In this document: positions 31,746 to 36,725 of the stretch, piece by piece | Layout: each line of letters begins with the position of its first letter | Position numbering within the stretch: the stretch's first letter is position 1 | Assembly: GCF_000003815.2 (NCBI RefSeq) | Contig: NC_049980.1 | Location: forward strand, 20,007,743 to 20,071,742 | DNA from: Branchiostoma floridae | Taxonomy: Eukaryota; Chordata; Leptocardii; Amphioxiformes; Branchiostomatidae | Length of the DNA stretch: 64,000 nucleotides | Direction of reading: 5' to 3' | Program-made: the position numbers and the translations under genes | The notes under the pieces: generated by a model | The model's input: the letters and a program-made list of their open reading frames with translations, nothing else | What the model was told of the DNA's origin: nothing | The model's database searches: none

Positions 31746-34700
31746 TCAGGCTTTTAGACTGGAACAATGAAAATGTGTTAGAATCAATGATGGCAGACTT
31801 ATTGTAAATCTGAAGAAGAAAAGAAAAATAAAGGAATTTTTTTATTCCTTAGTTACTAGATTTACCTTTTGAGGAAAGCGTGCACGTTGCCATGACCATG
31901 GTGCTTGGCGGCATGAATGAGGATCCCTGTGGCACCTCTGCCTTTCTTCGCACGGCAGAAGCTGCAGTTACAGATCCCTCTGCAAGGTGGACAGGTCCAA
32001 TCCTACAGACAAAAGTAACAAAATGTATGTCATTGGAACAACCAAAACCAATACTGTAGCGTATAACCAAGTCTGAATGCATAAGATAAACAAATGACTT
32101 GTAATTTGAATGATGGATTGTAATTTAGATAAACCACATCGTACTATACATTGTTTGAACTAATGAAAAGAAAAAATAGGAATGATCAGGGATAATACTA
32201 ACTGGATCCATGAGTGCTTCTTTGACTTCCTCTCCGTACCGATTGCGCAGACAAGGTCCACAGAACTGAAATTTAAAGTTTTGTCAGTATCACACTTTTG
32301 CATACAAAATGTATCTTTTATCAAACTACAGTTTATAGCCAACATCAAAGAAACTCTCATCCTGTATATGAGATACATTTGCAAAATTGATTAGCCTTTA
32401 TTAAACCAGGAGTTGAAAGTTTCAAAAAGATACGTTACAGTTAAATAACTTGGGGGTAATTTAAATATAACTGTTACAATAAACAACACAAGTCCCAAAA
32501 AAATGTCAGCATGAAGCACTACCTGTCCTCTGATGCCAACACAGCTCTCGGAGCGACAAGTTGTCTTAGTGTCTGCAGTCTTCTGTCGACACTGATGGCA
32601 GCTTGTCCCCTTGAAGAAAATAGTGTAATCCACACTTTAATCCATGCATCTAATATGTGCTTTGCCAACGCAATGGCATAACTTGAAATAATCTGATGCC
32701 ATTATGTACTGTATGTGACTAGTGCAATATATCCTAGTGGGTAGTATTTATTTTGTACTTGGAATGTTGGGTCATAACCTAGCCAGGTCATACCTGAAGA
32801 CTTATGAAATAATACATACTGCTTTCTCTGGATGCTTTGTACGTAGGACTTATGGGAAAGACTTGAGCACTGGCCTTGTTGGGCCCAAAGGCTATAGAAA
32901 TGGAGATTGGCACTGCCCCTATATACCTAAAGATGTGAAAGGGGTCTTGATTAAGAACTTTAAAATGTTATGTGCATAATGTACATCTACTGTATACTTA
33001 CATGCACAGAATTGTATACTTTATCAGCCACCCTGTCTGCAACCAGCTGTAAGTCTTCTTCTGTGATCTCTTCAACCGGTACAACACGGTGTGGCTGTGC
33101 CTTGTAACCTCCGCTTCGCCGACGTTTGGGTGACGGCAGCTCCGTTTCCTTTGGTGTGATAAAATGACATCAACAACCATCTTAGTCTGGGATATCTTAT
33201 CACATTTTCTTGGAGCAGCCTGCATGGCTTCCACGATCTACTGGCCCCTTCTTTCAGCTGGGAATACAGGTAATAAGGATCATGTATGCACAGTCAATTT
33301 TAATCTTATTAAAGTCTGTGAGCAAAACCAGGTATTGCAATAGTCCTTATCTACATGGTGCCCACTTTATGCTCTGTATTACTTTAAAAAGATATGTAAG
33401 TGCTACCAGTAATCTAGCGGATGTAGGGTCCAGTGTTTTTCAGTCTGTTTATACCTCTTTCTAGTGGTCTACTTTCCTAGTGATCCCCTTTTATGCAACT
33501 TCAAGTACATTGTAATATTAAGTGTATTCATAATACTCAATAGAATACAAGGGTATTCTTTATACATTTATATATATATATAAACAATAGCTTAGATAAT
33601 TCCTACTTTAAGAACAGATAATTCCTACTGACCTCAAGAGGAATTTCATCCTCATCCTCCCCATCACTTCCTTGCCTTTTTCCCGCACCGAACATGAAGC
33701 CAAACTTAAAACGTAGTTTCTGAAATAAAAACACACACCTATGATACTCCCGCAAATACAAGTTACATAGTGAAAAGTGGATAAAACAACTAGTGAAAAT
33801 ATTCAAGAATTTGTTGTTTTGTGCATGGTCACTAGCCCCCTGCTACAGTGCTTGCACAACTGTGTGGTCCAAGGGCTATGGAAATGGAGATTAGCACTGT
33901 GCCATATACCAAGAGATGTGGTTATCGCAACAATTTTAAGTAATTATGACAGCGTCCCATCCACACATGATGTGATCAAATGAAGTGGTGCACAATGAAA
34001 AGCTGGATGGCAATATAATATGACAGAATGTATGTAGTCATATTGGTTCTATTAGGTAATGGTGATAGGGAAATATAGAATTAGAGGTTAAGTGTCCTAC
34101 AGGGGTGTTGTTGTTGTCATTGCCTCGAGCCCGGGTCATGGGGGGACTTGTCCTGGTACTGCAGTAGCTTAGGCGCTTCGGGTTTCTCCTGGGGACGAAG
34201 TTGTCGTCACCCATTGTTCTCCTTCTGGATGGTGACTGGATGTAACAAATGTTGTTAAAATATCACAAGAGACACTTGTACAATAACAACAACTGGGAGG
34301 AGGACTAGTTGAATAAAAAAAATAAGATGGTCAATATGAGAACCGTAAAATTAAACTTGTATGGCCTAAAACAGCTTGAATAAATCATCTTTTTCTTTGA
34401 AAAAATAAATGTAAAAGCTGAGATGTGTAAGAAAAATTTACCTTTCTCGCCTTCTTATGTGGGATGTTAAACTCTGGATTAGACCTTAGCTCTGCCAATG
34501 CCTGCTTCAGCTGTCAAAAAAAAAGGTGATCAGAGATGGCAGACTTCAACCCCTTTAATACATCTTCAGTGTCGCTATATTGTAAAGTACAAAAGCCTCA
34601 TTAAATGAGTCTCTACAGCATCTTGAATGCATCCTTTAGAAAGACAAATGAGTTAGAATGTTAGAGTATCATTTGAGAGGACTCTTACCATGGCCTGATT

Positions 34701-36725
34701 TTCAGCCACATTCTTCCGCCTCCTCTCCTCAATCTCACTGTGAGCCCCAGGGTGGAGTGTTGGAAGCTCATCATCATCATCATCACCATCCGAGTCGCTC
34801 TCTGTGTCCCAGCTCCAGGACTGGGGCTCGGCTGGACGTTTGGGACTGCTGTCAGGGGATCTGGACTTCTCACTCTTCTCCTCCTCTCTCTCTTTCCTCT
34901 CTTCATCATCGCTCTCAGAATCTTCATTCTCCTGCTCAGATACTTCTTCCTCCTCACTTCTGTCATCATCATCATCATTAACCTCAACCTGTAGAAGGTA
35001 ATTGGTAAATTCTTATCTATATTCTTTTAATATACCCTCTTACACCACTATTTCAACTCTATACTAGATATCTCTTGTGTGCACTGCCCACCCAGAACCT
35101 CAAAGATTAACCAGTGACTTGTGGCTGTAAATGCTAAAGACTACCTACCAAGACGAAAAGAAACAAAGATTGAGCAACCCAACTTCTTTGCAGTCTTGCC
35201 CGACAAAGCAGGATATTAAGAAGGATATGCCTACATTAGATGATTTGTCTCTGTACACAATGTGTCCCAATAACATTGTCAGATTTCTATTCATCTCTGT
35301 GCCCCAGGTACAAGCTTGAAGCAACTAAAATCCATTGTACTCACATGCTGAACTGCAGGGTTGTTCTCAATCTCACGCAGACCCTCCGCAAAACCTCTAC
35401 GGTTGCTAGGACGGCCAAATTTGTCTTTGAACTCTTCGTATGGATACAGGTCTTTGATGGACACTGTGCCTCTGAAACAGAATAGATAACAATGTGGCAT
35501 GCAATGTGGTCCATGATATTTTGCTCATTTTTTTACAGGATCTTCAAGTTCAAATTTGATTGTTTCTTGCAATTTTTTGTTCGAAGAAGAAAGGATGACA
35601 TCTGAGAAGGCATTTTAGTATTATATTTTAACTCCCAACATGATTCATCCAAGGTCTATCATAGTGAACTAAAATGAAACTTACACTTCATGCGTGCCAT
35701 AGAAGAAGACGACATGCTTCTTTGCCGACTTCTGGATCAAGGGATGGTCTTCCTCAATCTGTAATGAGATTTGATGATTACATGTGATTTGTGTATCTCC
35801 ACCTCCAATTTTCCTGGTGATTTATTGTGTGCACAGACATGATTTAATGCTGCTTTTTTTTGTTATTCCCCACATTTGATTTTCTTCACAAAACTTGAAA
35901 CTTTCAATTTGTTAAAAATGGGTTTGATCAAAGAGCTGGGCTGTCTACCTGGCCTGTCTACCTGGCCTGGCTATCACGTCAGGCCACTCAGATCCCCCCA
36001 TTCATAGCCCCATCATATGGCACTCAGCCAAAATAGCTAATTGACAGGCATAGCAATTGCTAATCTCCAACCCTGCCAGTGACCTGAGGTTAGCCTTTCC
36101 ACTGGCTGGGCCCTTCGGGAATGTGACTTTGGACCCCTACCGGACTTTGGACCCCTCCCGTTATACATATTCCTCGTGGTTTATTTCGTTCTTTTTTTTT
36201 TTTTACAATCTATCGCTCATTTTGCAGCTGTTTGTACAGTTTACTGTATGGTTCAAAACTTTTTTCTTTGGAAATGGCCAAAAATTGATACATGTAGATG
36301 TCATCCAAATAATCAAATAAACATCGCTAAACCCATTGGGGGTCTGGCCTGGTAGCCATAGGGATCAGTCATGCTGAACACATTTGACGACTGTTACGGA
36401 GTTTTCTACAAACCCACAACTACTAATATATTCACAAGAAGATACAGAATTTACCAAAATAATCAATACAACATAAGGGAGAAACCCTGCAAGTCACACT
36501 GTATCGATGTGCTGGACTTTTTGTCCATGTTATAATGTGATTGATTATTCGTTTTGAGCTCAACTCCTCAGATGCTTTATAGTTACGGTAGGCGTTATAC
36601 TTATAGGTAGGCGTGCACCTCGGATTCACAGATTCAGAAGAAAAACTCACCCTGCCCGGCCAAGCTGGATAACCGCGAACTTTGGCGAACACCCGGTCCC
36701 CAGGCTGTGGTTCCCAGACTGACAT
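31746..36725 (-). CDS. PWWP domain (HDGF/LEDGF type) fused to CDCA7-type 4CXXC_R1 zinc finger
   Basis: Twelve exons: 36725-36651, 35758-35685, 35471-35345, 34988-34689, 34510-34442, 34235-34101, 33719-33633, 33148-33002, 32609-32523, 32265-32203, 32002-31866, 31758-31746. They give 437 aa, and all phases fit. Residues 1-92 are a PWWP domain of HDGF/LEDGF kind ([56 protein letters not shown]). Residues 93-192 are acidic with [12 protein letters not shown]. Residues 193-260 have a leucine-rich helix ([14 protein letters not shown]) and RRNPKR. Residues 315-338 are [18 protein letters not shown]. Residues 339-434 are the CDCA7 finger with Cys 342, 345, 356, 361, 369, 372, 392, 395, 399, 401 and 404 ([37 protein letters not shown]), ending [16 protein letters not shown]7 recruits and activates the HELLS remodeler for DNA methylation maintenance; PWWP domains of this kind read H3K36 methylation. 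The human CDCA7 proteins I know lack a PWWP. Nuclear function is inferred. Confidence 0.93.
32850..32965 (+). repeat. dispersed repeat copy 1
   Basis: Contains GGCTATAGAAATGGAGATTG then GCACTGCCCC and ATATACCTAAAGATGTG. It resembles the copy near 33868 in the next intron but one. I believe this is the end of a dispersed amphioxus retroelement. Confidence 0.5.
33830..33950 (+). repeat. dispersed repeat copy 2
   Basis: Contains GGGCTATGGAAATGGAGATT then AGCACTGTGCC and ATATACCAAGAGATGTG, homologous to the copy at 32850-32965, in the same orientation and in another intron of the same gene. Confidence 0.5.

Follow-up and report, generated by a model that had tools for sequence, protein, structure and literature searches.

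A predicted CDCA7 ortholog of amphioxus with an HDGF/LEDGF-type PWWP domain fused upstream

In the reading that we consider moderately likely, the gene described here encodes a CDCA7 ortholog of Branchiostoma floridae with a built-in HDGF/LEDGF-type PWWP domain fused upstream, and this domain would act as a tether that directs maintenance methylation to H3K36-methylated gene bodies. At the level of sequence, the gene model, both domains, the similarity of a helix, the correspondence of introns and the detection of a single finger gene form its basis. The gene lies on the minus strand (36725-31746) of the window, i.e. the whole 64-kb stretch of DNA that was analysed. Its 12 exons splice in one frame to a predicted protein of 437 aa (CDS of 1314 nt, 0 internal stops), all 11 introns have GT-AG borders, and an in-frame stop precedes the start ATG at 36725. 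The original prediction of 12 exons in a single 437 aa frame thus holds in the rebuilt model, and the exons that it had named (35471-35345, 34988-34689 and 33719-33633) are identical to the base. The features are:

36726..37200, no strand: promoter-like stretch between the PWWP-CDCA7 gene and a GCKR-like gene, CpG o/e 1.09
36651..36725, minus: exon 1, start ATG and PWWP part 1, aa 1-25
35685..35758, minus: exon 2, PWWP part 2, aa 26-50
35345..35471, minus: exon 3, PWWP part 3, aa 50-92
34689..34988, minus: exon 4, acidic linker and first half of the putative HELLS-binding helix, aa 93-192
34442..34510, minus: exon 5, second half of this helix, aa 193-215
34101..34235, minus: exon 6, CDCA7-like basic segment RRRT..RRNPKR, aa 216-260; weak donor (gtagga)
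33633..33719, minus: exon 7, linker, aa 261-289, no relatives found
33002..33148, minus: exon 8, basic stretch and [13 protein letters not shown], finger lead-in, aa 290-338
32523..32609, minus: exon 9, finger cysteines 1-4, ICF residues R346 and G366
32203..32265, minus: exon 10, two further finger cysteines, ICF residue R376
31866..32002, minus: exon 11, final 5 finger cysteines and C-terminal tail
31746..31758, minus: exon 12, 13 nt, ends the protein as SLKA-stop

The GCKR-like gene is on the plus strand, shows GKRP domains and has its first detected exon at 39.7 kb.

Exons 1-3 had been proposed to encode a full HDGF/LEDGF-type PWWP domain, and the searches bear this out. Pfam PWWP PF00855 matches aa 9-87 (E 3e-13, 50.5 bits at a cut-off of 25.6), HDGF 2nlu matches aa 7-91 in the PDB (E 3e-28), and each of the 17 distinct PDB sequences that match the domain at E<=1e-20 is HDGF, HDGFL2, HDGFL3 or PSIP1. 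The domain scores 230-267 against the HDGF/LEDGF type and 55-90 against four other PWWPs of the same genome, which were named by eye and of which three are partial single-exon pieces. The genome also holds a separate LEDGF-type gene (PWWP and IBD) on another contig, C3. In comparison with this one gene, two PWWP introns of the fusion share both position and phase, while a third agrees in phase and lies within 3 codons. An assembly chimera was considered unlikely on the basis of this intron placement and of the sole N run in the window (100 N, 59493-59592), which is distant from the gene.

The junction between PWWP and CDCA7 homology falls in intron 3, which is 356 nt long and in phase 0. Exon 4 could in principle take another first exon there, and the joined transcript is a prediction from DNA; two genes or transcripts may therefore be envisaged that exon chaining joined wrongly, one with exons 1-3 for a small PWWP protein and one for a separate CDCA7 starting at about exon 4. 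However, M1 in the first PWWP exon is the sole in-frame Met ahead of the helix, a start at M192 would cut this helix, and a scan of GTRAG donors in intron 3 revealed no alternative ATG exon. Furthermore, the one promoter-like CpG peak is found upstream of exon 1 and none in the gene body: CpG o/e is 1.09 over the 475 bases that precede exon 1 and 0.16 in intron 3 (2 CpGs), and 0 of 85 gene-body windows reach 0.8. This test is weak alone, as a value of 0.9 is attained by 130 of 1270 windows over the 64 kb, and one of 0.8 by 8 of 159 windows in the body of the C3 LEDGF gene. A gene boundary at 34101-33719, a worry raised with the original prediction, is unlikely because CDCA7-like sequence flanks that intron on both sides (RRRT..RRNP in exon 6, [13 protein letters not shown] in exon 8). 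Altogether, the PWWP and CDCA7 parts appear to be one predicted gene, and the two-gene alternative is disfavoured as highly improbable.

Behind the PWWP, the acidic linker of exon 4 (36 D/E among the 83 residues of aa 93-175) leads into the helix, within which CDCA7-like sequence starts. The helix of exons 4-5 resembles the HELLS-binding helix of CDCA7, with scores of 91 and 103 that 0 of 500 shuffles reach; it was judged by sequence similarity and, as for RRRT..RRNP, against human CDCA7-family segments. In Xenopus, it is this N-terminal helix of CDCA7 (HLBH), not the finger, that binds HELLS (PMC11343034). HELLS recruitment, originally ascribed to the finger, would by this precedent belong to the helix formed by the end of exon 4 and exon 5. 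Against solved structures, aa 171-311 gave no relative at E<=1.

The finger itself, predicted as a CDCA7 4CXXC_R1 finger with 11 cysteines, was confirmed. Pfam zf-4CXXC_R1 PF10497 matches aa 334-432 (E 5.7e-39, 132.7 bits at a cut-off of 22.7), CDCA7 8tle matches aa 305-436 in the PDB (E 4.8e-62), and SLK from the 13-nt exon 12 aligns with CDCA7 chains of the PDB. The 11 cysteines match exactly CXXCX10CX4CX7CXXCX19CXXCX3CXCXXC, the class I zf-4CXXC_R1 pattern (PMC10538959). Alignment with the CDCA7 PDB chain, together with the distances of 20 and 10 that separate the human residues, identifies R346, G366 and R376 as the three ICF-associated residues, human R274, G294 and R304. A search of the same genome for the zf-4CXXC_R1 family matched the PWWP-CDCA7 gene only; in viral and prokaryote collections, 23 and 90 pattern matches for relatives were obtained, of which 0 were confirmed. 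The gene is best read as the CDCA7 ortholog of the B. floridae genome, with a class I finger.

How could the parts of such a protein work together? The PWWP would keep it on nucleosomes that carry methylated H3K36 in the bodies of transcribed genes, where the finger may sense hemimethylated CpG after replication, and the helix would recruit HELLS, by which nucleosomes would be made accessible to maintenance methylation. Such a PWWP would then play in cis the part that the LEDGF/p75 PWWP plays in trans for CDCA7L/JPO2 of humans, a protein tethered to chromatin by LEDGF/p75 (cited in PMC3355077). In Branchiostoma lanceolatum, methylation is reported to be predominantly within genes (PMC9246332). 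Such a fusion is probably not a general requirement, since sea anemone and insects have CDCA7 alongside gene-body methylation (PMC11343034) and their CDCA7 is not known to carry a PWWP. The B. floridae genome also contains an exon that by eye is the PWWP of DNMT3. Given this exon, guidance by H3K36 could lie with de novo methylation.

A different role of the PWWP has to be weighed as well. V16, Y19, W22 and F44 occupy what we take to be the hydrophobic/aromatic cage positions; the first of these is V in the fused protein and in the C3 LEDGF-type gene and M in HDGF. The fusion could be real and its PWWP a general nucleosome/DNA anchor, or one with a degenerate histone pocket, which adds affinity and not H3K36me targeting. 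DNA binding is also a property of HDGF-family PWWPs, the first cage position is V, and the module has diverged (identities of 48/83 with HDGF and 40/85 with the C3 gene), all of which counts for this explanation. Against it speaks that Y19, W22 and F44 are kept and that the C3 LEDGF-type gene likewise has V at the first position. We rate this explanation as rather unlikely. Less likely still, and in our view improbable, is that the protein mainly has transcription- or Myc-linked roles of the kind reported for CDCA7L/JPO2, and that its PWWP serves as a coactivator tether rather than in DNA methylation. JPO2 has indeed been described as a c-MYC interacting partner of LEDGF/p75 (PMC8534522); however, the only finger gene detected in the genome keeps a class I finger, 3 of 3 ICF residues and a HELLS-type helix, features associated with hemimethyl-DNA sensing and HELLS recruitment (PMC11343034).

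If methylation targeting is indeed the role of the fusion, it would bear on how invertebrate gene-body methylation is targeted and upheld, as the built-in PWWP of such a CDCA7 would physically link H3K36 methylation to maintenance methylation. Similar genes remain methylated even in arthropod lineages that lost DNMT3 and have DNMT1 only, so that methylation there probably follows another mechanism than the H3K36me3-directed one of mammals (PMC9246332). A role of CDCA7-HELLS limited to heterochromatin is unlikely given gene-body methylation in invertebrates (PMC11343034). Tentatively, and as a possibility short of probable, we propose that chordates found two solutions: the cephalochordate CDCA7 would carry an H3K36-reading PWWP that couples a transcription mark to DNMT1-side gene-body methylation, whereas vertebrate CDCA7, without a PWWP, would recruit that of LEDGF in trans via LEDGF-binding motifs. 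If true, the fusion would be a Rosetta-stone protein that explains why CDCA7L binds LEDGF/p75, and their interaction could be seen anew as the counterpart in trans of what the fusion has in cis. Among the matches listed, titles and abstract openings do not describe a PWWP-CDCA7 fusion, which could stand in the ortholog table of PMC10538959 or in automatic annotation; the term 'PWWP' is absent from the main text of PMC10538959 and PMC11343034.

Compared with known systems, the amphioxus protein is like CDCA7 and CDCA7L (JPO2), the HELLS-partner hemimethyl-CpG sensors, in class I finger spacing, ICF residues and a HELLS-binding-type helix, and solved CDCA7 chains are the best PDB matches of its finger. 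In contrast to these, it adds an N-terminal PWWP and is devoid, across all 437 aa, of the LEDGF-binding motif [E/D]XEXFXGF, which is frequent in vertebrate CDCA7 proteins, being common but not defining (PMC10538959). Its PWWP is of the same type as in LEDGF/p75 (PSIP1), HDGFL2 and HDGF; unlike LEDGF/p75 and HDGFL2, it has the CDCA7 body in place of an IBD after the PWWP (no match of PF11467 at E<=1 in 437 aa). Fusions of zf-4CXXC_R1 with DDT/WHIM1, JmjC and CHROMO likewise put chromatin domains on this type of finger, yet those described in PMC10538959 have class II or diverged fingers, while amphioxus would combine a class I finger with a PWWP. The LEDGF/p75-JPO2 complex likewise unites a PWWP tether with a member of the CDCA7 family: there, two proteins are joined through IBD and motif, whereas in amphioxus both would reside in a single chain.

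The predicted coding sequence of PWWP-CDCA7 comprises 1314 nt in twelve exons on the minus strand (36725-31746), which join through GT-AG introns into a single frame of 437 aa; this re-joining confirmed the exon coordinates of the original prediction. The start ATG at 36725 carries an A at -3 and has an in-frame stop upstream. In the 437-aa predicted protein, a PWWP domain (residues 9-87, E 3e-13) and a zf-4CXXC_R1 finger (residues 334-432, E 5.7e-39) both score above the Pfam cut-off, and the closest solved chains are HDGF for residues 7-91 (E 3e-28) and CDCA7 for residues 305-436 (E 4.8e-62). 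The proposal that a PWWP domain and a CDCA7 finger share one frame is thereby borne out, and for the predicted protein such matches cannot be ascribed to chance. Even the 13-nt terminal exon, encoding SLKA and the stop, has a counterpart, as CDCA7 chains align with SLK.

By the definition of an eLife survey (PMC10538959), a CDCA7 ortholog has 11 signature cysteines together with three ICF-associated residues. The cysteine spacing of the amphioxus finger matches that of vertebrate CDCA7 exactly, and the ICF positions are occupied by R346, G366 and R376. In Xenopus, a CDCA7 helix N-terminal to the finger is described as binding HELLS (PMC11343034). The end of exon 4 and exons 5 and 6 align with the counterpart region of human CDCA7 and CDCA7L with scores of 91 and 103, compared to 54 and 61 for the best of 500 shuffled controls. 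An exon-by-exon search of the whole genome (513 Mb, 431 contigs) for the finger family gave two matches at E<=0.001, both of them exons of PWWP-CDCA7. As far as such a search can reach, PWWP-CDCA7 is therefore the sole CDCA7 detected.

The PWWP family, by comparison, gave 12 exon matches in the same genome, among them an HDGF/LEDGF-like exon (L014) on contig C3. Three PWWP exons lie around it, together with a LEDGF integrase-binding-domain piece (27.6 bits, Pfam cut-off 26.3) and a weak second piece below the cut-off (13.1 bits). Since it combines these elements, the C3 gene is most likely of the LEDGF/HDGFL2 type:

G000:C3, ~2.52-2.54 Mb (loci L015/L016): LEDGF/HDGFL2-type gene, PWWP plus integrase-binding-domain piece

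In both genes the first PWWP intron (after WPxR, phase 0) and the second (within the residue that follows THE/TYE, phase 2) share residue and phase, and the third is of equal phase and lies within three codons. The PWWP of PWWP-CDCA7 scores 267 against HDGF and 230 against the C3 gene, and 55-90 against four other PWWPs of the genome, three of which are partial single-exon pieces. HDGF and the C3 gene score 358 against each other, higher than either against the fused copy, so the latter is, judged by alignment, diverged from both. The origin of the fusion is most simply explained by a copy of the PWWP module, introns included, passing from an HDGF/LEDGF gene to a position ahead of CDCA7.

Around PWWP-CDCA7 the window holds:

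2452-2850, plus strand: open frame, by eye resembling a cyclic-nucleotide/HCN-type channel exon (candidate)
29315-30118, plus strand: short downstream gene, convergent with PWWP-CDCA7, with RPB9-type and TFIIS-type zinc ribbons; predicted RNA polymerase small-subunit-like
39.7-45.3 kb, plus strand: domains of an upstream, divergent GCKR-like gene; two GKRP SIS families above cut-off, lid domain slightly below
40690-41050: minisatellite-like array inside the GCKR-like gene, 50-bp period, 7.3 copies
46954-47285: minisatellite-like array just past the GCKR-like gene, 48-bp period, 6.8 copies

The units of the two arrays look alike, on opposite strands. No further Pfam family was found at E 0.01 in the frames scanned (plus strand, 37.2-47.2 kb; both strands, 21.7-31.7 kb). 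CpG o/e is ~1.0-1.1 in 2-kb blocks at 22001-26000 and 0.1-0.4 over much of the remaining window, apparently a sharp mosaic of unmethylated and methylated DNA.

Could the two domains belong to separate genes? Exon 4 is already CDCA7-like, so any boundary is expected in intron 3 (356 nt), its natural site. The methionines of the protein are residues 1, 192, 223, 248, 269 and 386; M192 sits inside the predicted HELLS-binding helix, hence a protein starting there would carry that helix only in part. A search between exons 1 and 4 for ATG segments closed by a phase-0 GTRAG donor gave just two, an extended PWWP exon 3 and one overlapping that exon in a different frame, and intron 3 contains no such segment. 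As an independent promoter test we used CpG o/e, a footprint of germline methylation. The 475 bases just upstream of exon 1 have a ratio of 1.09, compared with 0.37-0.44 across the gene, 0.16 in intron 3 (2 CpGs only) and 0.22 in intron 6 (3 CpGs only); between the PWWP-CDCA7 and GCKR-like exons the ratio peaks at 36.5-37.25 kb. None of 85 sliding windows in the gene body (31746-36450) reaches 0.8 (maximum 0.54), nor does any of 135 in the GCKR-like gene. This supports a single promoter, short of proof because peaks are not rare (130 of 1270 windows across the 64 kb reach 0.9) and also occur inside genes: in the C3 gene body 8 of 159 windows reach 0.8, and its first exon has a value of 1.0.

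The putative PWWP cage, with positions assigned as in LEDGF, is occupied by V16, Y19, W22 and F44; HDGF has M in place of V16, and the C3 gene likewise V. As to function, which we infer, the PWWP may read H3K36me, the finger would read hemimethyl-CpG and the helix would recruit HELLS, the latter two activities being experimentally described in CDCA7 relatives (PMC11343034). United in one chain, they could act as one unit that promotes maintenance methylation where genes are transcribed. In Branchiostoma lanceolatum most methylation reportedly falls within genes (PMC9246332), a pattern with which the CpG depletion of genes in the window agrees.

Altogether, the prediction that two known chromatin domains are fused in PWWP-CDCA7, a core DNA-methylation factor, is well supported, and the literature searched yielded no prior description of the fusion. 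It represents a new form of CDCA7. JPO2/CDCA7L is reportedly tethered to chromatin by LEDGF/p75 (as attributed to Maertens, 2006). In LEDGF/p75-depleted human cells, JPO2 nuclear localization was reportedly not extensively altered (PMC8534522), which counts against a strong trans-tether role. LEDGF-binding motifs ([E/D]XEXFXGF) are described as frequent in vertebrate CDCA7-family proteins (PMC10538959); the 437-aa fused protein contains no match. With its PWWP built in and no such motif, PWWP-CDCA7 thus appears to have one chain in place of the two vertebrate proteins, LEDGF/p75 and JPO2/CDCA7L.
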